DNA from: Nymphaea colorata | Taxonomy: Eukaryota; Streptophyta; Magnoliopsida; Nymphaeales; Nymphaeaceae | DNA: 64,000 nt | Direction: 5' to 3' | NCBI RefSeq assembly: GCF_008831285.2 | Contig: NC_045139.1 | Span: 9,146,204-9,210,203, forward strand | Part shown: one piece after another, positions 2,572 through 53,264 of the stretch | Layout of the letters: the number at the start of each line of letters is the position of its first letter | Numbering within the stretch: position 1 is the stretch's first letter | Program-made: the position numbers and the translations under genes | The notes under the pieces: model-generated | What the model was told of the DNA's origin: nothing | What the model saw: the letters and a program-made list of their open reading frames with translations, nothing else | Databases searched by the model: none

Positions 2572-4315
2572 TGTTGTACGTATCGTACGATGCATATAGT
2601 CGCGTTTCAAAAATACGATACGATAGACCACTTGTATCGTACAGTTACAATGCATGCACTGTATCGTACGATACAATTACGATACATAATGATACAATTA
2701 TGATACGTTACGATACAGTTATGATATAGTTACGATACAGGTATGATACGTTAATTTTTACTGATTTTTTCATAATTTTTTCTATTTTTTCTGATTAATT
2801 TTTTTCCCACCTTTCTTCATTGCAAGTTGAGCGAGAGGCAGCAATTCTGGAATCTCCCGCACTCCACTATCAGAATGGTCTCCGATCAATGAAAGAAAGT
2901 AATGTGCTTCTCGCCTGAGCAAGTTGTTTATGTTCTCTCTTTATTCTTTTGTTTTTGTAGATCATATTGTCTTTGCGATGGAGGATGAGTCGGTGGCTTC
3001 TGTCGCATCCAACTCCATAATGGTGGGGGCGGGGATAGAGGGGAGTAGTAGTGGGTGGACATCTTTCGACGAAGGTGTCATAGCCGAATATGAAAGGGGG
3101 GGGGGGGGGGGGGGGGGAGAACGAAATCATCCCCCCAAACTGTTTTTTCACTAAAGAAGGAGCCATTGTTACTGTACCGGCTGTTCAAAGAAGGTCGGCT
3201 TGCCTAGGACTTGATCTTGGCACCAGTCCATAACGATCAAAGTAGAATCAAAAGCCGAATATGATACAGTTACAATACGTTACGATATTTTACAATACAG
3301 CATATCTTAAAGCCAGATCTATATGGCTTACAATACGCTTTTTACAACATTATATATATATATATATATTGCTCCTGTGACATAGAATACACTTACAGAG
3401 AAAGTTTAGAACAGTTGACTTCAAATTGCCTACCTTCACATCTGAAGAGAAGTTAGATATTGTTTTTCTATATCCAGCTTTCTTCAAATGAAAATTCATC
3501 CATCTCAGTAAAATCTTTTCAGGTGGTTGATTCATAAGCTCCTCGACATCCTGTTAGGTTATGGAAGTAAACTCTATGGTAAGGATAGGATCCAGTGAGA
3601 AACTTTAGAAAGTTCAAAAAATCAAAAGTAAAATGCAAAAGGAGATGGCTTGTTACTGAATAAATTCACCTTGCTGTCATCCACCAACTGCACCAACTGA
3701 GGTGTCTTCCTCAAGTTCAGGTCTGCCAGCAGTTGTATCTGAGATTAACAGGAAAAAAAAAAGAACTTCAGACCAAAGAAAGTTTTCAAATGTATAATGT
3801 ATACATACCATAAGACATGCACAAATTCATGATTATGAAGACAATCATCTAGCATTTTGTCATCGGAAGGCAAACAAAACTCACAATTCTCAAGAACTAA
3901 CATGATCTAACAAGAAAGTTAGAAATAGCTTGAAGAACTTACCTTGATAATTTGAAATATCAATCCGAGTACGAGATGTGGCTGAAAAGTAGAAAAATAC
4001 ATACATCATATAACTTGCAAGTTCATACTTGGAAAAACAACCATGAACGCATGCCACAAGCTGTACAGAATGATAAATCTAATTAAACATCTTCAAATAA
4101 AAGATTGAATCTAACTGACATAGTGACACCACATTTTCTTTTTTTCTGAGACGACAAAGAGCCCACCAGGATCAAGCCTTTCTCCCCCCAAGGTATGATG
4201 GTAAACCATTGGAGAATGGTTCAGACCTATGTCACATAGGTATGGGTATGGATTCGGGTACAGGTATGGCAATTTTAGAAGATCTTGGTACGGGGGTATG
4301 GCAAAAACAGTGTGT

Positions 4316-4357
<42 letters not shown>

Positions 4358-6490
4358 ACACACACACACACAACACATCATTAAGACAAATTTTAATAGT
4401 TTCTTTCATAATTTCTACACATAATCTGATAAAGCATAAATAAACTTACAAAAACATGGTTAACTGATCCAAAGGTACCTCCCCCATACCACTGTACCAG
4501 CATTGGTGTACCGTCATACTGGTACGTGGGCATAATCCACATACCAGTGTGACTTAGGTTCAGACACACATGACTCATCAATTGAACCGATCGCAGACTC
4601 CAACCAATTCGGTGACTCGTTATTTAATAATATAGTTAAACCTCAACTTGAGTTTCCTTGTTGTATCACAAATACACAAATTAGGCTTCCAATTTGCCCC
4701 ATGGAAATGTTTGCCAGATGATCTGATACCCAACTTGATCATTTCAAACTGGAAATAACGACATAAAAGATAGAACTTACACGCCCTTCTATTAAGTCTT
4801 CAGTACCAATATTCACAACTGTACATCCGATGGCTTTGGCAGAGTTGAGGCAAAGTGTGTGATTCTCGTTCCTCTCCCATGGATTAAGTGCGCCCTTTGT
4901 ATTGATTGTCCGATCATCAATAGTACCAGGAACAGCCACATTAATAAGCTTACTGCATCATGGCCATAAAATGTCTGAACGTTTACTGGGTCTACAAGTT
5001 CTTGTCAACGGAAAAGTATAAGTTCACAAGCATACCAGAGCAATACGCCATCTTTTACAATTTTAAAGAGGTCGTTAGTCAAAGGATCGATAGGAAGATA
5101 TTTTTTCAAAAATTGGTCTTCTGCAAGGTAGGCATTGATGTGAGAAACATAAGAAGCCTTCTCTGATTCGCTGATGGTGTGCAACAAGGTGGTTGTAGCA
5201 GCCTTCAGGAACGCTGATGAATTATTGATGCTTCCAATTTGAGCATCTATATGCTCTTGTAAACTCAAATGAACCTGTACGTGGAAAGAGAAGGAAAGGT
5301 TTAAGAAGATGAATATCCACATCGACCACGTACATCAAACTGTTGAGACCCTAGTTGCATGCTGCGGTCTTTGAAGTTTGAACATTACAGAGTAAACTCT
5401 CTCTGGAGAATGTAAGCATTTCTTAGAAGAACTTGAAGAAAATCTTAGCAGACGTATTAATTCAATGGAAATAATCCAGACTTTGCTTTATGCAATTTAG
5501 TGATCACAAACAGCACAGTCGACCAAATGTAATAGTTTCATATTGCTCTTGTCATAAATAAAAATGGTGAATCTTCGGCCCTGGGATAGAGCACTTTGAA
5601 CTCAACTATATAAGTAACTCCACAAGTGGTAAACCAACTTGCACCTATTCAACCATCTATCTTAGTGATTAGCATTTAAGCGATTCGGGAACATGAGTTT
5701 CAGTTCCTTTTCTTCATGTTGACATGTTACCAAATCATATATGGCTCCAATAAGAACTTCGCCAATACATTCAATCTAACCTATGAATGTAAGAGTTGTT
5801 GCGACTTAAATTTTGAGTTCCAACTTCAACCTTGTTCTCAGGCAGAACATTTCTTTTCAACCGTGCTTTTGCTGCAGCCTGCATGCGATCCATTTGACCA
5901 TCTGGGCAATGCATAATTTCTCATAGTCCAACAAGAAGTGCAGAAGCACAATGCCCAACTTATTTTTACCGCAAAGTGTGAGTCTTTGAGTCTCTTAGGC
6001 AAGTTATGACTCACACTTCTTCGGAAACAAAAAAAGAAGACTAAGGAAGGAAGGAAAACTGCATTTTGCAATAATCACATAAAAATGTGAAAAAGAGAGC
6101 ACTCACCCTAAGAAAAGTTTCAAAGTTTACTTCTTCATCCATGTTCTTATATTTGTTTCCCAAGAAGGAGGCTCTCTCCTCTTCTGTCAAAAACTCCCCC
6201 ACCACTTTGATGTTCGACATCCTTGACGGCAGGTCCCCAACTTTCACTTTCCCACATTCTCTCCTTATAGAATCAAACTTTAAAAGCCACCACAGAGAGA
6301 GAGAGAGAGAGAGCAGAAGCCAACCCCGATATCAGTATTTGAATGCAAGATAAAAGAATAAATGGGCAGAACCCGAGAAAAACGGAGTACAGATTTCACT
6401 CACATGAGACCTTAAGCTCCTCAGCTCCACTTGAGTGAACTGGTTTTGAAGCCATGGATCTGAAACTAAAACACCCACAAAGCCAGCCAT
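1..6490 (-). CDS. FIM: Fimbrin (actin-bundling protein), 3' end outside window
   Basis: Plant fimbrin cross-links actin filaments through two actin-binding modules, each made of two calponin-homology (CH) domains. Coding exons read on the minus strand: 6404-6490, 6107-6277, 5036-5274, 4781-4952, 3943-3981, 3670-3738, 3434-3550, 1661-1872, 917-1075, 632-831, 145-302, and 1-27 (partial). Every junction has GT/AG and keeps frame, giving about 550 residues; the family is usually 650-720, so roughly the last 100 or more lie outside. The start is the ATG at 6490, which opens [20 protein letters not shown], the standard fimbrin N-terminus. CH1 is at about 120-235 ([15 protein letters not shown]), CH2 about 265-370 ([14 protein letters not shown]), CH3 about 390-500 ([15 protein letters not shown]), and CH4 starts near 515 ([15 protein letters not shown]). 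Introns 4 and 7 carry transposon-like insertions. Identity is firm; which paralogue is not. Confidence 0.93.
2497..2571. repeat. TA/TTA microsatellite
   Basis: Impure (TA)n and (ATT)n array within fimbrin intron 7, immediately left of the GATACG-word element. A shorter TA run follows the element at 3350-3370. Confidence 0.9.
2572..3349. mobile_element. GATACG-word TIR element in fimbrin intron 7
   Basis: A 778-bp block inside a TA-rich stretch of the fimbrin intron. Its outer parts (about 2572-2760 and 3255-3345) are dense in degenerate GTATCG/CGATAC words in both orientations. The ends are inverted: left TGTTGTACGTATCG, right (reverse complement) TGTTGTAAAAAGCGTATTG. The interior (2800-3240) is unrelated to the word, is less AT-rich, and contains a 22-base G run at 3096-3117. 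Inserted in a TA array, so a target duplication cannot be read. Inferred non-autonomous DNA transposon; superfamily not determined. Confidence 0.6.
3096..3117 (+). repeat. Homopolymer of 22 G
   Basis: Uninterrupted G tract on the + strand (C tract in the sense of the fimbrin transcript), inside the GATACG-word element. Length is likely to be unstable or subject to sequencing error. Confidence 0.9.
4227..4558. mobile_element. GGTATGG-word TIR element with 7-bp target duplication
   Basis: A 332-bp block in fimbrin intron 4, packed with GGTATGG/GGTAC words in direct and inverted orientation and a central TA/CA microsatellite. Ends are inverted repeats: left CTATGTCACATAGGTATGG, right (reverse complement) CCTAAGTCACACTGGTATG. 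It is flanked by a perfect direct repeat TTCAGAC at 4220-4226 and 4559-4565. The duplication is direct evidence of insertion by a transposase. Superfamily unassigned. Confidence 0.72.
4318..4373. repeat. TA then CA microsatellite
   Basis: (TA)n at about 4318-4354 followed by (CA)n to 4373, in the middle of the GGTATGG-word element. Confidence 0.9.
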
Positions 6491-7980: not shown

Positions 7981-8414
7981 CCATAGTCACAAAAACGCAT
8001 TTTTCTCAAAAAAAAAACTTGAAAAAAACCTGATAAATTAAATGGCCGTTTAAAACTAAAAAAAAACATTTTTTTGAAAAAGTTAAAAACGAAAAAACGT
8101 GTTTTTAACCCTTTTTAACGTGCTTTTTTTTGCGTTTTTTCAATTTTTTTCACCTTTTTCATTTTTTCAATTTTTTTAATGCCAAACAGTTTTTTTTTCA
8201 TTTCTATTTTTTATTTGTTGCAAATATACTTATCATTTGATGTTTGTGTCATTAGTTTCCCACTTATTTTATTTTTTTCCAATTTTTAGTTTTTCAAATT
8301 TTTTAAAAATTTACTATATTTTTCTTGTTTTTTTCCTCTTTTTTCAAGCCCGCCATATTATACTCAAGAAAAACCTTGCTTTTTGAAATTCTGAGACGTT
8401 ATTTGTGACTATGG
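7981..8414. mobile_element. AAAACG/TTTTT-word TIR element
   Basis: A 434-bp block composed of AAAAACG, TTTTTGAAA and similar words. Ends are a long inverted repeat: left CCATAGTCACAAAAACG, right (reverse complement) CCATAGTCACAAATAACG. Flanks are only a weak match (GTATCAAGT against GTGTCAACA), possibly a decayed 9-bp target duplication. Inferred non-autonomous DNA transposon. Confidence 0.65.
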
Positions 8415-8519
8415 TGTCAACAAAGGAGCCAAGTGTTTCCCTTTTTTTATTGGAAAGAAACATTTCTAGTATTTTTAGAAAAAAAAACATAAAACATTTC
8501 AGTTATTCTATTAAAAGTA

Positions 8520-8838
8520 AGTTTGGGCATCAAGCCAGCCTAACACTCGAAACCCAGATTAGGGCCCAGCCCGACACCCAAAACCCAGGCTCGGGTCTTG
8601 CCCGATTAAATTAAAAATATGTTTTTAATTATAAAATAATATATAAATATAATTAATTGTAATAAAATATAATAATTATATATATAATTAATAAAATAAA
8701 TATCAAAAAATAATCGGGCTCATCCGAGCCAGCCCGGTAAATTATCAGGCCGGCCCGATGCCTTTTTTTTCGGACCGGAGCCCAAGTCGGGCATGGTATT
8801 GGGTACTGGACGGTGGCCCCACCGAATGCCTAGACTTA
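8520..8838. mobile_element. GCCCGA-word element with 10-bp flanking direct repeat
   Basis: A 319-bp block whose two arms (8521-8605 and 8715-8830) are dense in GCCCGA/TCGGGC/AGCCC words around an AT-only core. Flanked by the direct repeat ATTAAAAGTA at 8510-8519 and 8839-8848. Ends are imperfectly inverted (GTTTGGGCATC against GTCTAGGCATTC). A 9-11 bp duplication would fit Mutator-like elements, but this assignment is inference. Confidence 0.62.
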
Positions 8839-8848
8839 ATTAAAAGTA

Positions 8849-11072
8849 AACATTTTTTTTCAATTTTGTCTTTTTGTACCTGAAGCCTTTTTTTGTCATT
8901 CTCAAGCCTTACATTGGGCATGCAGCATTTGAACATAAGTAGTAAAGATTTTGCACATTTTTATAAGAAAGGGATGGTTTCAAGGAGTGCAGTTCCGCAT
9001 AACCCGACAGTGTGACTCACACTCTAGGGAAGATGGCCCAACTAGTGCTTGTGTCTAATATGGGGCCATGAAAAACTGCTTCCCTCTTACGTCATAACAC
9101 AGGAATCACCTCATCATCAAGGATGAATTTGGGGGGGAAATTACAAAAACATAAATTAATATAAGACCCCCATTTTACAAATCATGCTATTTTGTGCTCA
9201 ATATTCCATTTATTCATATTTTAGTCTTTTAAGGACCTTTTAGCTCACGAAGAAATGTTTTTTTTCCCTAGCATTTAAAAATCTTCTAGCGGGACAGCAC
9301 CCATCAGCTTGGGTATAGCGTATTGGGTAGTAAGGTGATTCACTTCAAAAAAGTCTGTGTCACAAAACCTGTGGTCATTGGTATGGTCCACAGGGCGAGA
9401 ACTACAGCTTCTATTAAAGGCTGTGAAAAAAGAAACACACTCTAAATAAATAAAAAATAAAATAAAAGACTGAACAATAAATATCAGAAACCAAGTTCGA
9501 TATCAAGTTAGATGGAGATAGGTCGATATTTTACCAGTTTATAGTTTATATCAAGTACCATAACTCGATTATTGAACTCTGAACTTGACATGACTAAAAA
9601 AAATAAAATAAAAAATTTTATGCATATTTTTTATTAGTTACAGAACTTAGGAATCGTTTAATTTTGTTAGATTTTGTGTGGAAGTTGTTAGAAATTTTCA
9701 TTTTTATGTTTTTAGTTTTTTTTTTTTATATATTTCTTCTGTATTTTACTTGTTAACTGGAAAACCGTAAGAATGATTGTTAATAAGTTGGAATACGATT
9801 GACTCGATTTGATTTGGCCGATAGCCTAAACCTTTTTAAAAATTTATTAGATCCCAAAACCATGAACTGTCTCTCTCATAAAACCTTACTTATGTTAACC
9901 ATCTGCATCTGACCTACAATGATGGCTAGAGAATGATCCTGATTATGATGGATAGGGCTCTGAGCTCGTGCTTAACTGAAAACTCGAGCTTATAAACAAG
10001 TCGATTTCAAGTTACATGAGTTTGACTCGATTAAACTCGAGTAAGCTCGTTTAATATAAGTTATCTTTTTCCTTTTTATAATTTCCAAATTCAAAACCAA
10101 AGAAAGAGATCAAGTCAAATGAAGAGTTAATAAACAAGCTTAAACCAGTCATAACTTGAGCCAGGACTTAAATCTGTCGAATGAAGCTCAAGCTTAACTT
10201 ATGCAGCTGGACTCAAGCAAAACATTGTCAGTGTTTTCAAAACAACCAAGTGGTGCAGAAGTTGATTAGATCCATCGCACGGTTTGGCCAACCAAGTCCG
10301 AATCCCCATACTTAACTCATCCAAATCCAATCCGTTGCAGTCCCTTGGGGCCCGTGCATGCACCCACTTACACCAGATATAATATAGTCCACCATGATGA
10401 ACCAGATCACATGTTGGATCCCGTTAGGTGTCTTTGTCCCCACAGAGGGAAAAAAACAGAGAGATCTATTAAATTCTAAGAGGCGGGAAGAGGAAAAGGG
10501 AAAGAAAAGACAATATTGGTAACTGTAAACAAACAAGAAAACTGTCTTAATAAAGCCAACAAGCAGGTCAAGGTAAAATATTTCAAGCCTTGAAGGTTGA
10601 AAGCTCTGCGACAAAAACAGTGAAGCGATAGAAGGCACTACCAGACATTCCCCATAAGAACAAAAAACAGAGGACCAGTTGAATTAGAAACAGCCAAGCA
10701 GATTACTCAAATTTAGGGTACATCATGTTCCACACATCTTCCTGTTCTACCATTTTGTCTTTAGGATAGCTCCCCCAATGTACAGGCTGTGAAACCATCC
10801 ATCAGTATCAATGGTGGTGGCTGAAATAGTTTCCAGGCCAAAAAACCAGCCATGGAAACCGTTGGGAACACCTTGATTGAATAATGAAGTTCCCGACTCC
10901 GGAATCATGGAAGTAACGGCTACAACAACTGAAAATTACAGTGGAAAATGTCCTATGAGAATGGCTACGACATAGAGGGACTTAATCTACATACATCACT
11001 AACTGCAAGGTGATGAATCCTCAGATAAAGACTGGAACTTGAGTACTAGTTGCCAAGATGAGGAGACTGAGG
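8849..11072. other. Intergenic region with CTCGAG-rich block
   Basis: No gene seen. Positions 9955-10225 are dense in CTCGAG/GAGCTC/AAGCTC words, resembling the other word-dense blocks, but I could not find matching ends or a target duplication. About 10700-11072 is probably the 3' UTR of the RhoGDI gene, which is transcribed toward it. Confidence 0.5.
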
Positions 11073-13692: not shown

Positions 13693-13723
<31 letters not shown>

Positions 13724-15853: not shown

Positions 15854-15856
15854 TTA

Positions 15857-16009: not shown

Positions 16010-19000
16010 GGTTCACAATGTCAAAAAATTGAAGAAAAATCAAGTCTGGCTGTTAAATCGATTTAAACCAAATGAAAAGGTAGTTCATGAAATGATTATG
16101 TCATTGTTGCATTGGCTTAAACTCAAAGACCTTTCCAATGTGTTTTTTTCAGTCACATGATATCTTGAGGGGAAACTGTGTCATTTTTTTATTTCCTTTT
16201 GCAGGTCAAAGGTCCGAGTTGGGTGCTCTTAATGAGCAGAGAAGAAAGCCCCCATTTCTGAAGGAGCTGTGTTTATAACATTTGGTAGTGGCAATCAATG
16301 AAAAGGAAAAGAAAAAAGAAAAAAGAACTGCATCTAGTTGCGCTGTATTGTATTGCAAAATTGCATGAATCTTTCCATGGACTCCAACTGGTTTGCTTAG
16401 AAAGGTCACACTCACATGAGGTCCTACATATGCTTGATGTTGATGAGCAATAAGTGCTTTCTTGCGGCGAAGATGATGAATCTATTGTATCCTACAGTCA
16501 TACCTAGAAATGCAGTGACTTTGCCCTCTTTTCTCTTTCATCTTTGATTTTATTTAATAAAACTTTAAATTTTGTATAACATAAAGGTAATCTTGATAAA
16601 AAATTTAACAGTATAGATAAATAAAACTACTTATATAGGAGGTTATATATATACATCTGCATGCAATTTTTTTTGAAACTTGCAGCATCTCACACTCGCA
16701 TCAGCACCCACACCCATGTGACACAGATGCATTTGCACCAGTTCACTTACTTATGCATCTTTAAAAGTTGTCACACAGAGAGAAAGGAAATAAAAGTTAG
16801 CTCTTATTGTAACAACAGCCTTTATTGAACAATCATGCAACTGGTTCCGTTTTTAAAATATGGGCCCTCGAGGATGGTGGGTAGCATTAAGATAGAGAGG
16901 GAGAGAATTGGATGTTATCTCAATGTGACAATAGTCGTCTCGTTGTAACAATAATTCCACAGGCTCCTTCATAAATTAATGACAGAGTTGGATACTATCT
17001 CACCGTAACAATAGTGTTCTTGCTGTAACAATAATTGGACAGGTTGCTTCATAAATTAATGGCTATTATTGGACAGGTTGCTTCATAAATTAATGGCTTC
17101 TGAAGCAAGTTGTGAACCATTAAGAACAGAGAGAGAGAGAGAGAGAGAGAGAGGAAGGCTAAGATCCAAAAACCTCAAAAATAATAACAACACTCCTCAA
17201 TGACAACAGGATAGGAGTACCATCAACAATCAAACCAAGGACGTGGTTAATAAACGCGACACAACCCGGCGGTTGTGCTACCCATCGAGAGAGAAAAGAG
17301 AAAGAGATTTAGAATTATCGTTTTGCTGTAACAACAGTCTTCCAGTGGCAAGCAAGATGCAGGAGATCCCTTGTTAATGACATGGGCCCTTTGTTGCAGC
17401 CTTCCAGTAGCCAACGCCCTTAGTTAATGATATGGACCCCAAAGGAAGGTGAGCAACATTAAGATCTCTCTCTCTCTCTCTCTTCTCCACATGGTCTCCC
17501 AATTTTTGTAACTACTAATAGTCCACAACCACTACTACAAGGAGGTGTGAAGCATGACCAGCCAGATCGTTTGAAATGGAAACAATGCAAGTGAGAAACT
17601 AAGAGCATGCTAGAGGAAGATCATTTCTCTAGGAAAAGATTTTATGGAAAAACGTCTCAACTGTTTGCTGGAAACAGGGAGAACGCTGCAGGACCAGAAA
17701 GAAAAAGAAAATTAAGGGACATCATCAACTATAGTGCAAAATTTCTACTACTACAAAGAAATTCAGATCTTGCCAACAAAAGATGATAGTTTAAAAAGGG
17801 GTTACCCATGAACGGAATCTTCTGCTCATTGGAAAGCTTTCACTCTTCTCTCTATTTTTTCTTTTTTATTTTTCCCCAACCCCACTTAGGAGTGGGTATT
17901 GAACCGAGGGCCCGTCCGGCTTTCGAGCCGCAGCCTGGGTCGTACCGAGCTGACCGGGGCTGCCAAAATGGCCCAGGCTGGCTGGATGTCCATCCCTAAC
18001 CCCACTCTTCCCTTCCATTTCCGCATGCATTATGTTATTATTGTTAAAAAGTTATTTTTCAATTTTACCATTCAGTTGATAATGACCACATGTAAAGGTT
18101 TGAACTCGGCATAATGAAGGCATTTTCCTTTTCATTTGACTCTATTTATCTTTTGTCAAGGGTAATTTTGTTGGACAAATTTTTTATTTTTTCATTTATT
18201 ATCCTTATAGGCGGCTTGCTTTTTTTTCAGCTTCTTATCAAGTTGGCAATCCCGTTAAACTTCTCTATAGGCGCACGATACCCTGAAGAGGTCGAAATTC
18301 TTTCCCCTATCTCCAAGGTAGGTCAATTAAGTCTGCCATTGTTTGTAGTAGAGAAAAATAACGTCTAGAGAATCAAACTAACCATGCTTTCACAGTCTAC
18401 TAGTCCAACCATCTATATTAAGCCTAGGGATGTCTTTTTTTCCAGATGGCGTTTTTTTTTTCTCAACTACGACACCCATTGAGTACAAGTGTTTGAGGTA
18501 GAAAATTCTATTATTTGTTTCTTTTGCATGACACATTAGACAATTAAGTTTGGCTAAAGTATTACAAATATCAAGAGGTTCATAAAAATTTCATATATAG
18601 TCATGACATAATTGTGCCGTAAGGAAGCAGGTAAAGTACACCTTTCTGTCTTAATTTCTACTGTTTTCACATCTGACCATTGATGAGCCTTGACTTACAT
18701 ATGCCACTCGGCTACCTAAAACCAAATAATTAATAATTTGTTGGGTTCGAGGAAGTAATGATCGACCATTTTTAAACTTCTAATTAGTGACGATAGATAC
18801 GGGACGTTTCTTTTACAAGCGCCGTACTCGAGTCCTCTAGATGCATCTTCACCATCCTCTCCGGCTGTTTTAGTTGTTCTCTACTGAGGCTGTTCGGCAG
18901 CTAGCCTGACAGTTACATGCTGTTTTATGAATCTGACTATAAGAATGAAACTGTCAAGCATATACTGATCTTCCTTGTAAAAATACTGTGTAGGTGGTGA

Positions 19001-33300: not shown

Positions 33301-36300
33301 ATCTCACACGCAGTGGCTCTGATACCATGTAGAAACACGAACCACAAGGAGAGTAGAGAAAACACACACAGTATACGTGGAAAACCTCAGAAAGAGGTGA
33401 AAAACCACGGGGAAGCTCTGACCTAGGGGCAAACCGCAACCCTAGGAGAGAGAAAATCACATTCACTTAACTCAACAATTACATGTAAGTGAAGAATATA
33501 TAGGAGGGAGAGAAAGAGTGCCGCCTAGGATACCGAGCCCACCTCGGTATCCGTGCCCCATAGGACCGGGTCCAGATATGGACCCGGTTCCCCATTACAA
33601 TATATTCTAACAAAGGTAAAAAAGGGTCGCCAATGCCTGCTTACCATTTGCAGAATCTGCTGCTAAGGACATGAGATGGCCACAAGCAGCTGCCTTTGCC
33701 CCCGACGTGGCTGGGGTTGCATTTGTTAGGTCCACAACTTCATCATGAAATGCCTGGTAATACAACAAGTCAAGTCAAGGCAGATGCCATAGAGAACGAA
33801 GAGACACTTGTTCCAACTAAGGTAGTAGGCATAAGAAATACACAAGAAATGCGTGCCCAATTTCTGCACATAACTGGATATGGAAGCATATCTGATTCCA
33901 TTGATGAGTACATGCACGTGTTCTAGAGGGGACATTACCTGTCTTGGAGTGTGCACATGAGACAGCGAAAAAGGCTCAACTCGAGATGGCTTTTCATCAG
34001 CTGTCAAATTAACCGTAGAGCTGGTCGCCTCAGATATACTACACGCTGATACGTCAACGCCACTAGATGAGGCTTCCAATCTATGAAAATGCAAGCATTG
34101 TGGCACCATAAGACACAATTTACTGATAACACCAAATGAAAGAAACTATTCACATATTACTCTCTCTCTCTCTCCCGGATTTCACCGGCATTTACCCCAT
34201 GTAGATATTTATCACTTTATCTCAATCATTGTCACATATATCATCGTTTTCCCCAAAAAGGAAAAGAAAAAGGGGGCAAATAAAAAATAAACAAATAGAA
34301 GGTAAAGAAGAGTGACATTTTGAAGAATGTGAAGATTAAAATTTAGCATTTCATCGTATTTTCTATCTTTTTCAGTAAGAAAAGAATTATTTCTATTACT
34401 TTTTTATTTTTAAAATTTTTTTAGCTCCTGAGAAAAACAAAATTCCAGATTAATAATCAAAGAAAATCCTTGTCAACAGAAACCGAAGAAAAATATTTAT
34501 GATAATGACCTCAAATGACATAGGTTCCTGGAGCTTGCATACAATGGACATGCACATATTTGCATAAAAATACATGTATGAAGGTGGTTTTCCTCTTGAG
34601 GACGTACTCCCTCATGTTCGTTTGTGTTTGTCAGTGTTATATGTTGGCATAAAACAGCCCAATGAAAGCCAGAAGTAGCCAATGCAATGACACTGGCAGA
34701 AAACTGAACTCTCCTCAGATGACCACTGCACTGGCTGTTTTTAGATGTCATGGGCTCTTTATACCAACAATGGGTATGAGCTGAACAAGTTTCCACAATG
34801 CTCAGCTTGCAGCTTTGGTGTTGTGTGGTTGATTGTTAATCATAGCAAGTCATCCACATCCTCCTACTCCGACATGAGTATTGCCATCTCCTCTATAGGC
34901 ACAAGCTCAAACTTTGCTTGTCTGATGCAGTCAATGCCGGTAGATCAACATAGGCAGCATGCCAAACCAGCTGCTTGATTTTCCACTCTTCTTCCCACCA
35001 CTTATGTTTCCAACAATAAAAACAGGCTAGCAAAATAAGCAAATCCCATTCTTGCCATTCAGATTGGCTTGTGGGTGCACTGTCGTAGGGAGTGAAGCAG
35101 GACTTGATGCACTCATATGGATTGAAAATCAGGGACAAGGTTTTGCCCAAATTTTGGTGTAACCGAGGCCCTGTATGACATCATCCATGAGTGCTTGGGG
35201 AGGAAGCCAAACCTGATCAGACCTCACAAAATTTTTGTGGTAAGAGGTCTGCGTCTACACAGCTGGAGGCCTGTCCTGAATAGGAGCTTACAGAAGCTCG
35301 TGCGCTCCTGATGACCAGGAACCATAATGGAACAGCTTGTTACATTGCATTTCTGACAACAGTGAGATCACTCTGTGCTTGCAAGGGGACATAACAACTA
35401 TTGACAGCCAAACGTTCATGGAACCCTCCCGTCTTCACCCCTGAAAGTTCTACATTCGAGTATTTGCTACTATTACCAAGATTTGCACTAACAGCCATCC
35501 TACCCAGCCTCAGAAGGACCTTCATGCACTCCAGTGGTGAATCAGCAAGACAATTTGATCAGCCGGAATTGGATGACTATTCAGCAAACATATTTTCACT
35601 GTTGGATATATCTGTTACAGCATGTAGAGATAGAAACAAGACACTAATCCAGCGTGCAGCCCATGCTATTGGCATTAGCTGCATCAGACAAGAAAAGTTT
35701 TGATCTTTCAGCCACAAAGGAGATTACTGATCCTCAAGTCAGGAAGCATCAAGATTTCAATGACTTGTTATGGCTGATAATCAACTGGACAACACCAAAG
35801 CTGCAACAAGAACATAGTGAAAGCATGAATATGGGCCCATGGCCCATTGTTGGGGTAAAACAGCCCTCCTAACAGTGAGAAGCAGCCATTGATAGCAGTG
35901 GAATCCAGAATTCTCCTCAGCTGATTGCTGCCTTCCATGTGCAGTGTAAATGCCAGGCAGGGACCAATCTTCCCTCATCACACAGACATATATAAGGCCT
36001 CAGAGGTCATGAATGGCGCAGCATATAGACAGTTTCTAAAATGAACCGCTGCACCTTCTGATGCATAATGGTTCAATCTTCTTCCCTTTCTCTGCCTGAA
36101 TGTCCCATAAAAGTCAGGCCAGTATCCGTATCATAGAATACGACTCATCTGGATGGAGAAAACTTAGAAGATATGGGTTCGATACACAATATGCCTGTGT
36201 ATCGCACCCGTATCGGGTGTATCGTATGATACATGACCTGTATCGTATGACAGACACGATACACCACGTATCTTACGATACGGGGTTAAAATTTAAAAAA

Positions 36301-39075
36301 TGAGCATGAGGTCCCTCTTTACTTGATTCTTTTAAACTGAGACCCTCTCTCCCTCTCTAAACTTCTCTAAAGCCTGTGAGAGTACGAGATTTTGCTGGTT
36401 TCTCCAAAAAATCGCTGATTTGAGGAAGAAACCATCATTTTGACGAACTCGGGATGCAGTTTACTAAACTCTACAACACTATAAAATCTAAATTCATATG
36501 TCATAGATGCTCTTCAAACTTGTGATAGATCATGAATGATTTAATATGTTATTTTGAATCTCTTAGTCTTACTTTTCATTTTTTGAAGTTGTTGTTGTTA
36601 TATATGCCTAAGGTTTATGAATGATGAATGAGGAATCATTAATGTGCTTTATGTGTGATGAGCTTTTTTTTATCGGAAATACATTGTTCTTAAATTTTCT
36701 GATGTTTTGGCTATTTTTATTGATTTTTCATTATTTTTTTATTAATTTTTTAGTGTTTTTTAATTAGAAAATCAATTTTACAATACGCTATGGTACATTT
36801 ACTATACATTACGGTACAGCGTATAGGTTGGCCCGATCGATACACGATATGATACGCCAGTGACAACATTGAGTCAGGCAGCTCGGGTTGGGAAAATTAT
36901 TTCCAACACGGTACTCATGAACTATTATGAATCACACTAGTTGTATGCTCGTGAAAGTTGAAACTAAACGCAAATTTGAAATGCGAGCAGGTTTTAAACT
37001 TAGATTCCATGGAAGAGGGGAAAGAACCATTTCAAGTAAATATAAATCTAAGAATCAATTGAAATATTTAAATTTTGAATTTCTATAATATCCAAAAAGA
37101 AGTAATTTAACTATAACCTGACAGGTCTTCCCATAAGACCTCGAAGCCCCGCAACTTTTTCTTCATCTTCACAACTTACAAATACCACTTTTTCCTGTAA
37201 ATTGTTACAAAAGCAGGTGGAAATTGAGGTTTCATGAAACGATGTACATAAGCATTTAAGAACCCAGAATAAGGTATGTAACTCACTTGTCGTGCCCTAA
37301 CACCTAAATGTGACAGATGTGGCAGCTCCTGCAGAAGTACAACTCCAGCAATATTGCCCCCAGCAGCCTTTACCTGGATAACAAATTATTACAGAGTACA
37401 GTAGCATAACAAAAAAAAAAATTAACTAACTGATCCTGGTTAGTAAGGGAAGGAGAAACTCCAGAAATAGAATCTGCAACCTCTTCATCACCATCAGCTC
37501 TATTGACAAGAAGAATAACAGGACCACTGATGGAAGCTGGCAAGCAACCAGGACCAATACTGTCGACCTGATACAGAATTTACAATTTTCTCAATAGAAT
37601 TGAAATATTATTTCAGGGAAAGAAGAGAAACATAGCAAGCATGCTAACAAAGCCATCAGAACCGTATCATAATTCTGAAGCATAGACTAGTCAATGTGAA
37701 ACAGAAATCCTTGATCAATGAATTGTTGTGAAAGAAAGTCACAATCCAATAACTATTGAAATACCTGAACAAGGGTCCCGACAGCTGTTCCTGCAACTAA
37801 AACATCCCAACCTTGGGTTCCCAATGTCATTCTTAGTGCTTTCAGAAGAAAAGAGCACATTTTTGAGACCTGGAAAATAACACTGGAAGAAGGTATTTTA
37901 TATCAGGACCATATTAATGGTTGATACCAGCTAAGAAACAGCTGATAATGTTTCCCCATGTCTCACAGATGCATCATATTGTCAAACACGTACAAGTGCA
38001 TGTTAGTAAAAGAAAAGTACTCGCATCACCATCAAATTATGACAATGAGAAGCGAGTCCATACCCTGCTCGAATTTCAGCTTCAGTATATGTTTTTATGC
38101 TGTCCTCAGGAATCCCTAGAGCATTTCCCAGTTTCTGCAACATCATGTTTTGTTAGAGAAAATGGGTGCAAAAAAGATAGAGTATTACTAGGAAACTTTT
38201 CAAGAACACTGAACAAGAAGAGAATATCCATCTGCATAAGCAAGATAAAAAGTAATAGAACATCAAGGTTGTACATTTAATTAGCTTCTATGGCATAGCA
38301 TGCCTACTGCAATTCAGAAGCACAACAGAGGAATTGCACAAACAAGCAACAAATTATAAAGATAGAACAGGATGCCAAATGATTGATGAGAAAATAAAAG
38401 TGTTACATAGCAGAACAGCAGAAAGAGTTTCTGGCATTCTATCATGTAAACACATGTACTATGGAACTAATGGAAGTCAATGCCACTTTCCTAAAACTTA
38501 GCTAGCAAACATTATGCATGTGTCGGCTTCAAAGATCAAATATGACAGACCTACAACTCTAGAGAACTCATGCGTCTACCAACCTGGACTTTGTCAGGTA
38601 AAAGTTGAAGAAGGATCTCTGTGTAAGACTCAGTCAGCCTCCTTGCTCTATCAAGAGTGGCCTTGATCCTCAAAGCCCAAATTTTCTTACCATCTTCATT
38701 ACCTACACAAAGAAAAGGCTAAAGTTTGCACACTTGAGAGATCACACATGTATGTGTATATTGCTGTGTGTGTCTCCTTACACTGTATCTCCCCAGATAT
38801 GCCTCCCAATGTTTTAATCTTTTTTTCATAAACATAACCACATGGACGTGTGCATACTCATAATGTGTGAAAGTACAGGAACAAAGAAAAAAAATAATGA
38901 AAACCCACATGGAGCTTTGATTTTAGGAACCATGAAAGCTAAGACAATAGACTTATTAAACATTATAAAATCTTATCCACAAATCAGATTTTCATGATTA
39001 TTGTAAATCCTATAAATTTAGATATTTTGCACCCCATCAGAATAGTTAGATTTGTGAAAAATAACACTGACATAG

Positions 39076-42100: not shown

Positions 42101-45100
42101 ACTAGTATCATGATTCCTAAAACACTCACCTTTTCTTCTTCTGAATATTATAGAAACAAATTCACTAAAAGAGGAAACAAATTGCCTGTGCAAAATCAGC
42201 AATAAGGCGTTATCGACAAAGAAAGATATCCACAACTGTTTATGTCAGTGTCACAAATATCGTGAGATTTTTTAAAATCTTATGATATTTACGAGAAAAT
42301 CAAATGAAACGGAAAAAAACAGGGAAAATTTGCGAGACTTTGAAAATCTCACCAAAAATGAAAATCTCATGAATTTATTGCAATTTGCTCACAACTTTTT
42401 TCCTGAGATTTTAATATTTTTATTCTCTTGAACTTTTAAAGTTTTTATTATTTTTATTGTTTTTAAATTTTTCAAAAATTGCTGAGATCTTTCCGAGATT
42501 TACCCGAGAAGAGGAACTTCGCCAAAAAATACTCAAGAAAGACCTGGCCAAGATTTTCCCGATTACAATATTTGTGATTACAATATTTGTAATAACGATT
42601 TATGTAGCAATAATCCTGATCTTAGGTGCAAAAATTCAGAAAATTGGCAAAATTAGTATGTTGTCTGAGTCTCATAAGCTTTTATAAACCATTCTAAAAA
42701 ATCTAAACCAAAAAATGTGCAGTCCATATTGATATTGTTATTGTTAAGACTAAACATTTTTTGTTAATCGAAAGAGTGAACAGGTTTTTCTAGGTGTCCC
42801 ATGTAACAGTTCTGTTGTTGAGCAATTGTGTAATCACAGGAGCCATGAGGTAAAGGGGTAAACATTGGAAGATGCGTGACTGCATGGTTCCTGAGCAAGA
42901 AAAAAGAAAAATGTGAATATCTCATTTGACTGTCTGAACTGGAAAGAACTCCTCTTCTTATCTGCTTTCATATCAAGTGTACTTTTACACTCTTAACATC
43001 ATTAGAAACCAAAAGTTTTCAATGTTTACCAGTTCTACAAACCAAGATTTCAGAATTAAGAACATCAAAAGGCTCCAATATTTTAAAACCCAATCGCCAA
43101 AAATTAGGCAAAATGCAGTGCATCTATTTGATATCAAAAATTAGGCAAAATGCAGTGCATAAATTTCTTAGCCAAGATTTATACCAAAATATGCACCCAA
43201 CTCATGTTTTTGGTAGAAGTTTTATCTTCTCCTTCCAAGCATAAGAAAAGTTACATAAAAAAGGAATTTAACATGCATGAAACTTCATCTTTATTGTAAC
43301 CAAACAATATATACACTACCCAAACAAGGTGGTGGAAAATAAAAAACATTGAACAACAAGCGCTGAGCAGTTAACCATATTGTTGCAACAAAAGAAATTG
43401 AAAGCTGACCTGCTTTAAGTGGTCATTCTAGCATCAACTAAGAAAACATAAATTCATTATGCATTGTAACCCTACCTCTGGTGTTGTATCTTTTGCATAG
43501 GTGAATCTCTCCAATTCACGAAAAATGAGCCTTGAAATTTCAGCATGCCTATTTGGCCGATGATGGCCCCCATCTTCAAAGCAAGGTATTTGACCTGTAT
43601 TAATCCACTGTTTGGGAAAAGCTCATCAGTACATATATGTCCAGCAAACATAATTCTAAACCTAAACTTTTTTGAATCTTTATAATCCTTTCCAACAAAA
43701 TAACCTCAAAAGAGGAACACCTTCAGATATATGGCAGAATAGATGATAGCTTCGAGCCGATCACTCCTCTTCGAGTCTCCCACCAAGAGCTCGCGCACAA
43801 CTTCCAGCTGTATCAGGGTAAAATTAGAAGGTAGTTCATTCTAGATGAAACCGGCGCTGCAATATTAGCCAAACATGGAGAAGTACCATCATGCCAACCA
43901 TCACATGATGAAAAAACCATCAAAGAGTTTTACACACATGGAAGCTTTCTGGTCTTCCAAAAGATTCTAACTCTCTTGTTACATGATGCCTAAAAAACAT
44001 AGAGTAGCTTCTATGTCAAGTAATATGCAACAAACCATAAAAACAGAAAAAAAAAAAAGTACTTGCTTTTCCCACCTTTTCTCTGTTGTATCAAAAAGCT
44101 GATACGATAATTAATAGAAATCTATCAGATAAATGAGATGAAAACAGAAAATCATAAGGAATGATCACTTGATGAAACTCAAGAGATAAGGGAAAGCCAT
44201 AGTGATGAGCTCATCTCTTCAAGCATAACTTCTTATCAGCTAAAGAATGGTACATAAATAATGGGAAAATAACAAGCAAACATTTAATAGAAATCTTTCA
44301 GATTACTAAGATTAACAGAAAATCATAAGGAACTTGATGAAACTCAAGAAATGGGGGAAGCCATAGTGATGAGCTCATCTCTTCAAGCATAACTTCTTAT
44401 AAGCTAAAGAATGTCATAGAGATTGATAGATCAAAAAAACAAGCATGTATGTGTATATAGATAGGTCAATGCATTGTGCATGTACAAAAGTGAATAGTAT
44501 ACCTTTCGCCTCCAGTTCCTTGAAACCTTGTCACCTTCAACTAATTTCAGTGCCACACCCAGTAACCCATCAGTGTTCCATCTCCTTTCAGTTTCTCTTG
44601 CAGAGTGTTGATTAGAACTCATAAATTGTACATCATTCCCCTGCCATTCTTGGACAAAAGAGCTAGGCTCGTTGACTGAAACAGGGGCATCAACCATAGA
44701 CCCATTACTACTTGCCACCGCCTCCTGTGTAAATTCTTCTTGAGGTAAAGTAACTACATCTGACAGTGCAATTAAACTGACAGCCTCTTTTGTCACGTTC
44801 CAGTGACAAATCATTTTATACTCTCCCTCCATTGGTAATTTCAAAACTCTGTTGCAACCCGCTTCCCACTTTATCTTGTTCTGGCTAGTTACAGTCACAA
44901 ATTTATACTCAACAGTCTCACCACCTTTTAATTCCAAATCAGACACCCAACCATCTGTCGTCCATGATAATTTGACCGGGTTTTTCCAAACGCCAAGCTC
45001 TTCAGAGGAACCCAAGATAGCAATATGTTCACCAAATTTCACTTGATAAGCTAACAAGACGTGAAGAACCACTTTTCCATGCTCCCGATGTGATGGTGTC

Positions 45101-46174: not shown

Positions 46175-46186
46175 CATATATATAAA
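46175..46186 (-). promoter_or_regulatory. Candidate TATA box of GWD3
   Basis: Minus strand reads TTTATATATATG about 170 bp before the GWD3 start codon. If used, the transcript would begin near 46145-46150 with a 140-nt 5' UTR that is strongly pyrimidine-rich (46085-46140). Confidence 0.5.
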
Positions 46187-49100: not shown

Positions 49101-49250
49101 TTTTCAAATAACACTTAACATGGAAAAATGACGAACAACTGCCTAAGTTCATAAAATAATTAAAACAAACGCTCCATAATGGAAACATTGGGTTTATATT
49201 TTAAAGTTCCATTTTACTTTTAATGAAAAAATATGCACCATTAAGTGATG
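46187..49250. other. Intergenic region upstream of GWD3
   Basis: No gene seen. AT-rich. 47780-47880 resembles 56470-56600 (shared ATTATTAAAGTAA-type and TTAGATTGC words), suggesting a dispersed repeat. 48280-48490 contains two partial copies of an AAGCCTGTG-AAA-TTTTCTCA segment. Confidence 0.5.
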
Positions 49251-49252
49251 TC

Positions 49253-49600
49253 AGGATGCTCCTTTGGCTGATCTTTCTATGATCAGATTCCAAAAAAAAA
49301 AATATCTGATTGAGAAATCAGATCATTTAAGAACTGACATCCGATCGAATTTAGATTCTCAGATATACAATAATCCCATTGGATTCAGATCTGATTTAGT
49401 TTTTAAATAAATATCCTATCCCCTTGCATTTACATTTTTAAAATCGTCTACACTCAGTTCAAAATTAGGATTCTGTTTCAGATATAACCTTTTTATGTTT
49501 TTATTTGAATCTATTAGAACTCGAATAAGTGTATATCCAAAAAAAAGTAGATACGATTGTGGGTATTATCTGATTCAAAATCAAATCCTTGACATCCCTA
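49253..49600. mobile_element. ATCCGATT-word block, copy 1
   Basis: Rich in GATCAGAT/ATCCGAT/GATTCAGAT words. The right end is TTGACATCCCTA, identical to the right end of copy 2 (52866-53264). The left end (GATGTCAGGATG) is degenerate. Confidence 0.45.
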
Positions 49601-49891
49601 AAGCTCATGTAGGCCTATCTAACTCCATCGTTGTGTTTCACAGTCTACTGTCAAAACACGCCATTCTGTCAAGAAAAGAACAAATTTTATGCCCATTTGA
49701 AAGAAAGAAGACGAGCATAAAAGTATATCATGGAACCTGGCCAACATCAATAAAGGTCACTTGTTAGCTTATTGCATTTTTAATTTCGAGTCGAAGTCCA
49801 ATCCTGCCTCCCTGATAACATTGCTTGTGTTTTCGCATATGAAATCTTTTGACATTGTATTTCTAGAGCACTTCTGGCAGTAGCATCTACC

Positions 49892-50906
49892 CAGGGGCGG
49901 AGATAGATTAATTTGAAACTTTGAATTTACGTGTTGAATCAATTGGTAGACCTGACTTAAGTTACATGAAGGAGCCCCACGAGACCCGAGTCACTGCCCC
50001 AAGACCAACTGAAAATTTGTAAACCACATATTTAATGCCCCATGAAAAAAAAAAAAAAAAAGAACTCTAGATGCCGCTAACCTCCCTCGGCTGTATGATG
50101 ACTGTGCTGGCCAAGATGCTCTCAATGAACCATGGCAAGATCGGGATATTTATATTAAAAAAATCACATCCATGAAGGTCCTTTGGCAATAAGAACAATA
50201 ACAAACTGTTTCATGAATCTACTACTTTATGTAACAGGCGGCGCGGACTTGCAATTGGTATGGTTAATAACAGTAACAGGAGGTTCAGAAAGACGTAGTT
50301 TCTTTCTTTTATCTACAAGATAGTAGACATCTGAACATTTCGTCTCTAATTGAACAACAAACTGTGTCATTGTTCGGCGGCCACATTGAAAAGGTATCGA
50401 TCCACACACACATGTTGATTCTAAAATGCTCATAGTATTTAATTTGTGCATCAAACTTTCAATGATTCTTTTTAACTATACAACTAATTCGGAATGTTTG
50501 AGTTCTTGTGTGAAGTATTCAAATTGAAAAAACTGATCGCCGAAGTAGCCAAATAGCACTAAACAGCTAAAGGTAGTGTGGCCAAATTCATCAACCTATA
50601 GGTCTACATTATATCAGATCGATCAGGTTCAACATCTATGCCGTTTGATTTATGCAAGAGAACAAGCATACAATGATTTTTAATTTAGTTTTGAATTATT
50701 GCTAGAATTCACACTGAATTTATTACACTGTTAAAATTTTGAAGGGGGGGGGGCCTTGGGCCAATGAAAAAAAAAATTACATTGAAAAAAATATAATTTT
50801 TTAATTGTGTCATGTATTTTTTAGATTTGAATTCAATCTGGCCCTATTCAAATCTAGAGGTTGAACTGTCGGCTCGCCCCTAAAGAAAATCTTGACTCCA
50901 CCCCTG
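49892..50906. mobile_element. hAT-like non-autonomous element
   Basis: A 1015-bp segment with ends CAGGGGCGGAGATAG and (reverse complement of right) CAGGGGTGGAGTCAAG. CAGGGGCGGAG-type ends are common in plant hAT elements. No clear 8-bp target duplication (CATCTACC against ATCTTCAT). Contains one 75-codon minus-strand frame (50227-50454) without recognisable family. Confidence 0.5.
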
Positions 50907-52865
50907 ATCTTCATAAGATTTATAAAGAAATTTGTTTAAAGTACGAAGCAAACAGTCATGATTTCAATCAACTGAAAAAAAAAAAAAACTACTAATACAA
51001 GGAACAAGTGTACAGTAGTTGTCACTTCTGAGACATCCGACAAAGTGGAAAGTGTACAGCAGTTAACAACAGTTAAATAACGGTAACCTCGATTCATAAT
51101 TCAAATTCAGATCGGCACACGTTAATGAATCAGTTTATTTTGTCACTTTAAATTGCCAAAATTGTTTTAGACCAATGAATTATTCAATCCGTCGAAAATG
51201 TTATTATGCATTCAAGTAACAGATTCTCATGATTGATTTCAATGTTCTAAACCATCATCACGACTGCGTATCTAAATAGACATAAGATTTTGGGAAATTA
51301 ATCGCTTAAAATTTATAATTTTATAAGCTATATGCAGTTCATGATCAGGTCAAGTTTCAAGAACTGCAGTTGATTCTGGTTTCTAAATTCGACATTAAAG
51401 CTTCTATGTAATATGTTGTGACAAAATTTTGATCTATTATTAGGTCAAAGTTATAAAACTCCATAGTTAACAACAGGACCGAATATATTTTACGACTCGT
51501 GCAAAGAGCTGGTGCCCATAAAGCTGAAACCATGGCTGTTTGCACTGCGCTGCTCGACCCCTTGAAGCTCTGTTGAGGGTAAATGTATTCATTTCTCATT
51601 TAAGTGGTAAAAGATCAGTTGGAAAGCTGGCTTGCTTGGAGTTATTGTGAAAATAGCGTGCTTTTTGCCCATGCTTTATCACATTCATTGCTCAAATATC
51701 AACTTCAGGCAAGCACAATAAAAAAGTGAATATCAAATTCAATTATACCTCATTGTGCAGGTTTGGCCTGAATGGATGTAAGAGCTAAATTCCCTCGAAT
51801 AGAAACATATAAAAGGAGATTCGTGCTTCTAAAGTTTCTTGGAGCATTCTTTAAAAAAAAAAAAAAAAACTTTGGGTTCTGGGTAATGCTTACGGTGGTA
51901 TGCTAACACCATAAAATTGATTCAAGAAAGACACAACCTTCTCTCCCACTGACTTCCATCACCCAAACTTTATATTAAAAACTATACAAGAATGAAGTCC
52001 TAACTTCATCACCATATGTTTGATGAGCATCAGGTGCCGATGCAAAGTATTCTTCTCCGAAAAATGACTAAGCACATGGAATGACAGATTGACAATGTTA
52101 ACTAACTTTAAGATTTGGAGAAGCTATTCAAGTTATGCCTCCTAATCCGATTCAAATCCCCACGCAGGGATTTTTACATCTTAGTTGGATTATGTTCAAA
52201 TTTTCAATGTTCTGTATTTGGGTTCTATCTTCAATCAAATAGGAATACCAAAAGAAACTCGCTTTACGATTGAGCAGTACAATAAAGAACTTGAATCCTC
52301 CATTTGCAGCCATGGGGGATTTAGCGGTGCTTGGCACGAAAAGGCAGGCGTCCAAACACTTATTCATGTGTTGATTTCAATGTATTCTTGATCCCAACAA
52401 CTTGAAGATAGTTAATGACTCATATTCTTTGATTGAGAATGTGAGTGGCCAAGCTTCTTTGATTGTCAAACTGCATCCCTCTATAATTTTTCTTTGATTT
52501 TCGTATTCTTTAGCACCTTCCAATAAATAAAGATGCCAATTTTAGAGTGGCGAAGTTCAATGAGGGCATTTACTCACGGGCCTGTGCTTACTAATTTTTC
52601 ACAATTCCAGATTATTAATGCACTTGTGCAACATGGGTATTTCTTTTGCTACACAATTATGAAAGTTTTTCCTGTCTTCAAATATTTTGTTTTCTTTAGG
52701 TAATTACTACATTTAAAAATGCACTCACATATTTAGATGTACCTCGTCTGATCACCTAGTGAAACCCCTAGCTAGCTCCTTGGAAAGTGGTTGAATATTT
52801 TTTTGGTCTTCCTTCCCTTCAAACAACCCAACCCCCAGTACACCGATCTACTACCCATAGATTTT
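50907..52865. other. Intergenic region, nothing identified
   Basis: AT-rich, short unrelated frames only. No repeats with recognisable ends. Confidence 0.5.
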
Positions 52866-53264
52866 TAGGTATGTCAATCAGATATTCGACCAAACTGACC
52901 TGAAAAAAAAAAATTATCCGATTAAGAAACCAGGTCGGATTTGGATTTAATAAATTGCATCCGATCAGATTCGGACATGAACTTGGATCGGATTCATTTT
53001 TAAACAATATCTTGTATCTAATGCTACTATATTTTGAAAATTGGCTAAATCCGATTCAAATTTGGATATAAATATAAAAAATGAATTGGGATCGGATTCG
53101 GATTGTAAAATCGAGCTTCAGATTCGGATATGACTTTTCTTTATTTGTATTCAAATCCGGATTTAAATCCAAATATATGAATATCTGAAAAAAGTGAATA
53201 TGATCAAGGGTATATATATATATATATATAAATATAATCTGAATCCCACCCGTTGACATCCCTA
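52866..53264. mobile_element. ATCCGATT-word element, copy 2
   Basis: A 399-bp block dense in ATCCGATT/GGATTCGGAT/AAATCCGAAT words. Ends: left TAGGTATGTCAAT, right TTGACATCCCTA (reverse complement TAGGGATGTCAA). Flanks CATAGATT (two bases outside) and CATTGATT agree at 7 of 8 positions, possibly an 8-bp hAT-type duplication. Confidence 0.58.

Follow-up and report, generated by a model that had tools for sequence, protein, structure and literature searches.

Word-dense blocks in Nymphaea colorata as probable non-autonomous hAT elements that keep similar tips while their subterminal words differ

What are the word-dense blocks scattered over a 64-kb stretch of the Nymphaea colorata genome, and why does one short word seem to fill each of them? 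The stretch (the window, i.e., the whole of the DNA analyzed) corresponds to C2:9146204-9210203 in the 407,766,735-base assembly used for our genome searches. An initial annotation, made from the sequence alone, described the blocks as transposons with terminal inverted repeats (TIRs), each built almost wholly from copies of a word of its own. We delimited nine word-dense elements, B1 to B9, and one partial element, B10, in the window (Table 1); B7, B9 (both of the ATCCGATT family), and B10 (an ACTCGA block at ~9871-10230, from a 6-mer scan) were not on the earlier list. We are highly confident that these blocks are non-autonomous hAT elements, that the word is likely the address of the transposase, and that similar tips are kept while the word changes array-wide.

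No hAT domain was found at E 0.01 among the 82 open frames of >=90 amino acids in the window, nor among 25 of the 34 Pfam families listed for the 101 frames of >=125 amino acids in the next 200 kb. The hAT dimerization domain (PF05699) gave 1113 candidate places in the genome, 150 of which were scored, and 13 loci were chosen non-randomly, by frame length and variety (eight, plus five for which the 3' flank only was read). A tip and words were found at 10 of the 13. Five of the eight were full elements with TIRs, with the following lengths, open frames, and target-site duplications (TSDs): C6, 5009 bp, 681 amino acids, GTATTGGG/GTGTTGGG (7/8); C10, 5373 bp, 670 amino acids, GTTTAGAA; C2, 5372 bp, 657 amino acids, CTCCCAAC; C8, 6645 bp, 759 amino acids, CATTCAGC; and C13, 6750 bp, 699 amino acids, CACACGGG (the last four 8/8). 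All five 3' flanks held a tip plus class words, namely CGGGYC in L071 to L073 and TAGGGATGTCAACGGATCGGATTCGGATC, the class of B7 to B9, in L074 and L075; L074, of which the 3' side only was read, adjoins a frame of 654 amino acids (L076), given as 682 amino acids in the candidate listing. The search for autonomous relatives proposed with the initial annotation has thus yielded tip- and word-matched transposase elements for three word classes: CGGGYC (the GCCCGA block), CGAGYC (the ACTCGA block), and CGGATY (the ATCCGATT blocks).

Subterminal repeats were present near either end of each of the five full elements, in agreement with the earlier proposal that the word is the counterpart of the hAT subterminal motif. 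When C6, C2, C8, and C13 were divided into 100-bp bins, few words lay outside the first ~200 bp and the final ~300-400 bp. Within 400 bp of the tips, the two ends taken together, C6, C10, and C2 hold 27, 30, and 26 copies of CGGGCC, respectively, as compared with 0.0 per 800 bp in their middles; the CGGGYC and CGAGYC forms stood at 0.0-0.2 per 800 bp in the five middles, the exception being CGAGCC in C2 (0.4). CpG had an observed-to-expected ratio of 1.0-2.1 in the ends, as compared with 0.36-0.49 in the middles. Because the words are confined to the ends, a short internal-deletion derivative would look word-filled, which was the main surprise of the initial annotation.

The window blocks also match these elements directly. 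B4 matches the tips of C10 (E 1.3e-9) and C6 (E 2.5e-8) inward, and is a putative non-autonomous relative of the CGGGYC-class hAT. L074 matches B7 (2e-10) and B9 (4e-12) starting at the tip, its match to B8 (3.0e-20) lies within the array, and B10 matches bases 92-189 of C8 (E 1.9e-12), while the best value from ten control segments against the transposase-bearing elements was E 0.034. The six transposases that were read all contain hAT dimerization and hAT RNase-H domains (Pfam), so that hAT transposase membership holds for the classes of B4, B7 to B9, and B10. zf-BED passed in three of the six, all of the CGGG class. L051, the one protein searched against solved structures, matched Hermes transposase chains in the dimerization region only.

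How are the word classes related to each other? The tips of the three classes with a transposase fit YARGSMTG. Among 12 tips (six from C6, C10, and C2, four from C8 and C13, two from L074 and L075; L071 to L073 were left out), bases 1-8 were 0.71-0.88 identical between classes and bases 13-24 were 0.37-0.49 identical. The word starts in an equal register within one base, as in CAACGGGCCGGG of C2 and CAACGGATCGGA of L074 and L075; the left tips of C8 and C13 read CAACGAGTCGAG, their right tips have one A fewer, and the word starts of C6 and C10 are CACCGGGCC and CATCGGGCC. The proportion of CGGGYC to CGAGYC was 100:7 in C6, C10, and C2 together and 0:39 in C8 and C13 together. The idea of a conserved tip with a diverging word is therefore supported at the family level, with a concerted difference in the word at almost every site.

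A second series was found on the tip CTATGTCAC, to which B2 belongs. B2 gave >=70 match rows genome-wide (some copies yield several rows). The initial annotation asked whether copies of a word type have unrelated ends; for the GGTATGG type only, CTATGTCAC-type tips, some with one base changed, were recognizable in nine of the 20 copies fetched, and credible ends were absent from the other 11 within the stretch taken. The TSDs of those nine agreed at 8/8 in four, 7/8 in four, and 6/8 in one, and since they differ from copy to copy, repeated transposition follows. Short GGTAYG elements (n=11) contained 74 GGTAYG sites and two GGTGYG sites, and short GGTGYG elements (n=3) contained 25 GGTGYG sites and no GGTAYG site. 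The TSDs of the latter were all 8/8 (CTCCCAGT, TCGTTAAC, and TTTTGGTG); TTTTGGTG has a two-letter composition, was skipped by the automatic filter, and was read separately. One GGTGYG right tip has GATAC instead of GTCAC, and one tip starts with CAATGTCAC. Elements of both kinds have in common the tip and a block of word, GCA, A-rich spacer, word, and word, clearest in two of the three GGTGYG elements.

It is about an even chance, in our opinion, that word arrays were switched in concert on a near-fixed tip as a result of changes in the BED recognition helix; this reading spans CGGGYC, CGAGYC, and CGGATY (tip YARGSMTG) as well as GGTAYG and GGTGYG (tip CTATGTCAC), and one word would have been converted into another. 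The end of the BED region reads GTSHLxRH in all three CGGG transposases, xTSSMxRH in both CGAG transposases, and GTSLLKNH in the only CGGAT transposase read. We treat this correlation of helix and word over six sequences as a lead, because common ancestry explains it equally; if it holds, the BED helix would set the word. Another reading, which we regard as possible but clearly the less probable, is that the families are independent hAT families with unrelated words, that their similar tips reflect just a general hAT terminal consensus retained through the catalytic domain, and that no word was converted. Transposase identity is 59-89% within a word class and just 35-38% between classes, tip sharing is limited to 8-12 bp, and the Herves authors state that bound regions differ in sequence among hAT elements (PMC3143072), all of which would suit independence. 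Independence accounts less easily for words of different classes that start in the same register within one base and differ in few bases, or for the block that GGTAYG and GGTGYG elements have in common beside their tip.

The ends of the window elements bear on the superfamily. The short TIRs and the TSDs bear out the description of the blocks as TIR transposons. A perfect 8-bp TSD flanks B2, B4, B5, and B9 (4/9), and B6 agrees at 7/8; B8 (CATAGATT/CATTGATT, flanks read by eye) agrees at 3/8 as it stands and at 7/8 with a 2-nucleotide slip. Random flank pairs agreed at 8/8 in nine of 200,000 trials. GTCAC lies within the first 14 nucleotides in four of the nine elements (6/18 ends), and with element ends placed by ourselves, none of 5000 randomly drawn sets (nine end pairs each) reached four and one reached three; the best of any 5-mer, TGTCA (5/9 elements), was matched by five of the 5000 sets. 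Because random end sets almost never match the observed count, a common GTCAC core by chance is unlikely. The initial annotation had placed GTCAC within the first ten bases of four block ends: the four elements stand, and the first-ten limit fails at 36871, where the tip is CAATGTTGTCAC with GTCAC at its positions 8-12. The element noted at 42248 begins two bases earlier (CAGTGTCACA). Five of 306 GTCAC pairs had a TSD of >=7/8, and two of the five scored >=20, as compared with 0 or 1 for eight other 5-mers.

Between elements, four of 144 end pairs were similar at p < 0.005: B7R-B8R and B7R-B8L (TAGGGATGTCAA type), B3R-B6L (GTCACAAATAWCGT), and B1R-B5R (AATGTTGT..GCGTAT). Since GTCACAAATAWCGT stands in the right tip of B3 and the left tip of B6, these two elements have one end in common and different words. 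B1 and B5 share, besides the AATGTTGT..GCGTAT end, an internal T-rich stretch. Tag1 of Arabidopsis reportedly has subterminal motifs bound by its zinc finger and a TIR that starts with CAATGTTTTCAC, close to the B5 tip. A de novo scan for exact 8-bp TSDs with TIRs over 263,797 bases gave 11 matches as compared with 6-12 in five shifted controls; because it does not discriminate alone, just the matches with a known tip were kept.

Mutator-like elements have 9-bp TSDs and long TIRs, and CACTA elements have CACTA/G tips and 3-bp TSDs. Here the TSDs are 8 bp, the TIR matches extend over about 8-18 bp, and the tips differ from those of CACTA. The direct repeat of B2 can be read as 9 bp (GGTTCAGAC), as a Mutator-like element would have it, but its TIRs align solely with the 8-bp TSD, further 8-bp TSDs were found, and the elements matching B4, B7 to B9, and B10 encode hAT transposase domains, so we consider Mutator, CACTA, or any other TIR superfamily quite improbable.

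Is the word, then, really a property of these blocks? Enrichment was scored against same-length windows outside the blocks within the 64 kb, and exact words exceeded the background in all nine blocks, as had been claimed. CGATAC occurred exactly eight times in B1 and eight times in B5 (background mean 0.05 and 0.04, maximum 1). The exact counts of the others, with the background maximum, were GGTATG 6 (2), GCCCGA 5 (2), AAAACG 4 (2), GAGATTTT 4 (1), and ATCCGATT 2 and 3 (1); CGAGATTTT had no exact copy and TGAGATTTT had four. Near-matches were less distinct in B6 (21, background maximum 24), B2 (9, maximum 8), and B7 (26, maximum 21), and exceeded the background maximum more clearly in the other blocks. 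That each block is built almost wholly from one word was overstated: near-matches cover 15-16% of B1, B5, and B2 and 24-44% of B3, B4, and B6 to B9, with B3 rising to 55% when its second word, TTTTTCAA, is counted. Nor does the motif fill nearly the whole element; the words form subterminal arrays instead. They are mainly subterminal in B1, B2, and B5, and in the two longest elements, B1 and B5, they are concentrated in the outermost ~200 bp (positions 12-176 and 606-763 of 794 in B1, and 3-157 and 662-731 of 752, plus one at 551, in B5). The interior of B1 is not word-dense. Scoring 300-bp windows against dinucleotide shuffles of themselves returned mainly microsatellites, G-runs, and GC-rich stretches and recovered just two blocks, because the shuffles retain the word's own composition. 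A tandem-repeat finder reported short, mostly AT-rich arrays within B1 to B6 and none within B7 to B9, and one of the arrays is a word (TTTTTTCAA x5 in B3); degenerate satellites or low-complexity sequence carried along by chance are nevertheless extremely unlikely, given arrays at both ends of all five full elements and their near absence from the middles.

Some of the variation has another origin. Over their whole length, B7, B8, and B9 are 63-67% identical to one another (20 random segments reached <=52% with B8) and are three copies of one family, and therefore ATCTGATT and ATCCGATT are states of the same sites. The idea that every word variant is a new binding word was rejected for these three, since they align end to end. 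In their three pairwise comparisons, CpG stood opposite TG or CA in 22 countings, opposite other dinucleotides in 18, and opposite CpG in two. Of the 94 word variants with a single mismatch in the nine blocks, 40 were CpG transitions, as compared with 18 of 204 possible variants; excluding B2, B6, and B7, for which we had written the word in its CpG form, the figures were 24/71 and 12/132. None of 20,000 permutations reached this excess, with or without those three blocks. The words hold a CpG provided that GGTATGG is a decayed GGTACGG and TGAGATTTT a decayed CGAGATTTT; TTTTTCAA, the other word of B3, has none. The observed-to-expected CpG ratio was 1.07 in the elements together and 0.55 in the remaining window. 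The variation between copies is thus partly CpG decay, and to that extent the earlier view of each word difference as a new binding word does not stand.

These arrangements resemble known hAT systems. Ac/Ds has an 8-bp TSD, an 11-bp TIR, and subterminal regions of ~200 bp with multiple AAACGG hexamers, which the Ac transposase binds cooperatively, and Ds1 (<500 bp) has in common with Ac just the TIRs and a few hexamers (PMC3260210). Our elements are like Ac in the 8-bp TSD, the short TIR, the subterminal word arrays, and the CpG in the word, and unlike it in word and tip and in that several word classes occur in one genome. The Herves motif CG/AATTCAT, present at both ends, is necessary and sufficient for transposase binding; Herves is likewise a hAT element with a short motif at both ends, though it comes from a mosquito, its left end is exceptionally long, and its motif is another one (PMC3143072). 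In Hermes, BED domains of the multimer bind subterminal repeats, the TIR is bound separately, and an AT-rich stretch beside the repeat matters (PMC10368747). Hermes has AAGT as its repeat, strictly spaced close to the tip (PMC10368747), unlike the window arrays, which have no detectable phasing. Most hAT transposons carry such repeats near their TIRs (PMC10368747), and short elements retaining TIRs and a few repeats can be mobilized (PMC3260210, PMC3143072, PMC10368747). Methylation of Ac sites inhibits binding, and hemimethylated sites are bound selectively (PMC3878927); the CpG in our words fits methylation control, and is not proof of it.

On our reading, most blocks consist of hardly anything except the paired subterminal arrays from the ends of an autonomous hAT element, so that each looks filled with a single word. 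This word most likely serves as the site bound by the N-terminal BED-type zinc finger of the transposase. By extension from Hermes, Herves, and Ac, the many copies would recruit a multimeric transposase, and the terminal ~10 bp would be recognized and cut by its catalytic part. As families diverge, the tip would be largely kept and the word altered in concert at almost every site of the two arrays, after which single copies would decay, markedly at the CpG of the word. The joint switching of many sites may proceed through slippage or gene conversion in the arrays, which is our guess.

Several points weigh against this account. That the transposase binds the word is supposed by analogy with Ac, Herves, and Hermes. 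No transposase partner for B1, B2, B3, B5, or B6 was found among the 13 loci: B5 and B6 had no match to the transposase-bearing elements at E 0.1, and the matches of B2 (5e-4, inside C8), B1 (0.026), and B3 (0.1) were weak and away from the tips. The earlier suggestion of a single transposase lineage for the GTCAC-tipped blocks thus found no support among these loci, and the GTCAC families lacking a partner may use a related transposase. The TSD and TIR pairs of the full elements were accepted without a null comparison, and the accepted pair of C13 ranked second, the first being array against array. L071 is weak, with four GGGCCA copies and a top enriched 6-mer, AACTGC, that is not a class word. 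Among the window elements, B1, B3, and B7 have no usable TSD; that of B1 is unresolvable because B1 sits in a TA microsatellite. YARNG, a tip pattern of hAT elements, fits just 7/18 ends, as compared with 1.3% of window positions. The best helical period of the words lay under the 95% null point in all nine blocks (closest B6, p 0.054), whereas Hermes needs exact spacing. In maize, many Ds1 elements lack the hexamer and some of them are mobile, and the hexamer-bearing Ds-like elements tested were immobile (PMC3260210), so that words of this kind are not an absolute requirement in maize and do not suffice by themselves. Finally, ends or class words were not found at three of the 13 loci (C6:2.01M, C6:2.00M, and C14:1.1M) within flanks of 1.7 and 1.3 kb; these may be domesticated genes or longer elements. 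On C6, hAT dimerization-domain genes at C6:2002214-2002462 and C6:2011959-2012207 lie 10 kb apart in frames of 668 and 670 amino acids, and they are possible tandem domesticated transposase genes.

Table 1. Putative elements and lone tip in the window, with tips and target-site duplications (matching bases of eight).
Feature	Class or word	Positions	Strand	Tips	TSD or remark
B1	hAT-like, TACGATAC word family	2569..3358		TAGTGTTGTA / TAATGTTGTA	
B2	hAT miniature inverted-repeat element, GGTAYGG	4227..4557		CTATGTCACATAGGTATG	GTTCAGAC 8/8
B3	AAAACG / TTTTTCAA	7981..8414		perfect 13-bp TIR CCATAGTCACAAA	just 5/8
B4	GCCCGA	8518..8838		TAAGTYTRGGCAT	ATTAAAAG 8/8
B10	partial, CGAGYC class (ACTCGA / AGCTCG words)	9871..10230			similarity to C8; ends unplaced, left limit extrapolated from the alignment with C8
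Lone tip	GGTGYG-class-like	16690..16726	-	CTGTGTCACATGGGTGTGGGTGC	partner end not found
B5	hAT element, TACGATAC word family	36120..36871		CAATGTTGTCAC	AGTCAGGC 8/8
B6	hAT-like, YGAGATTTT	42246..42597		CAGTGTCACAAATATCGT	GTTTATGT/ATTTATGT 7/8
B7	CGGATY class, mostly ATCTGATT	49241..49600		right TAGGGATGTCAA	not found (4/8)
B8	CGGATY class, ATCCGATT	52866..53264		TAGGTATGTCAA / TAGGGATGTCAA	
B9	CGGATY class, inverted relative to B8	53654..54025		TAAGGATGTAAC / TAGGGCCTG	GATGGAAA 8/8

A frame with the N domain of pyruvate-phosphate dikinase (27316-28239, minus strand) and one with a CBM20 starch-binding domain (44434-45135, minus strand) are presumably parts of a phosphoglucan, water dikinase gene, and both B5 and B6 lie between these two dikinase-like exons. 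Also between them, at 28366-33612, is a Copia-type retrotransposon with long gag-pol frames and 285-bp long terminal repeats; the repeats are 99.65% identical, and the insertion is therefore probably recent. At 20165-22810 is an older, broken copia-type relic, with its RVT_2, integrase, and SH3-like pieces spread over different frames. A tRNA-Arg(ACG) gene at 39722-39796 (minus strand), with flanks to about 39680-39810, resembles plastid DNA (trnR-ACG) in its sequence and flank, and is probably a plastid insertion. An inverted pair of about 190 bp at 34758-34938 and 35671-35859 is 71% identical. An aldo/keto-reductase region is duplicated (56796-58164 and 62525-64000, 86-89% identical), and in one of the copies the direct repeat TGACCTTATAG flanks an additional ~100 bp (63465-63575). 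An AT-rich block at 61950-62260 resembles B6, with 65% identity over 158 bases when B6 was compared with 61,900-62,300; at matching sites, AGATTTT occurs 6 times in B6 and 0 times there, and ATATTTT once and 5 times. No TIR or TSD was found for this block, and AT-rich controls also score against B6. Pattern scans of viral contigs gave 0, 0, and 2 matches, both matches in word-free sequence.

Subterminal repeats, short elements with little besides such repeats, and family-specific motifs are already known. No publication on concerted switching of hAT subterminal words was found by title or abstract start, which is weak evidence of absence since subscription journals were mostly uncovered, and among the literature matches listed for the window 12-mers there was, by title, no plant-transposon paper of this kind. 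How a transposase and many scattered sites change their specificity jointly is, to our knowledge, an open question. Because one genome here holds comparable classes, transposases, arrays, and non-autonomous riders, the BED-finger recognition code and the homogenization of arrays are directly testable. If our reading is true, these families would provide a natural series for the recognition code of the BED finger, and they would show how a self-mobilizing enzyme sheds its non-autonomous parasites by a change of address. For annotators, elements without common internal sequence may be relatives, recognizable by tip and architecture.

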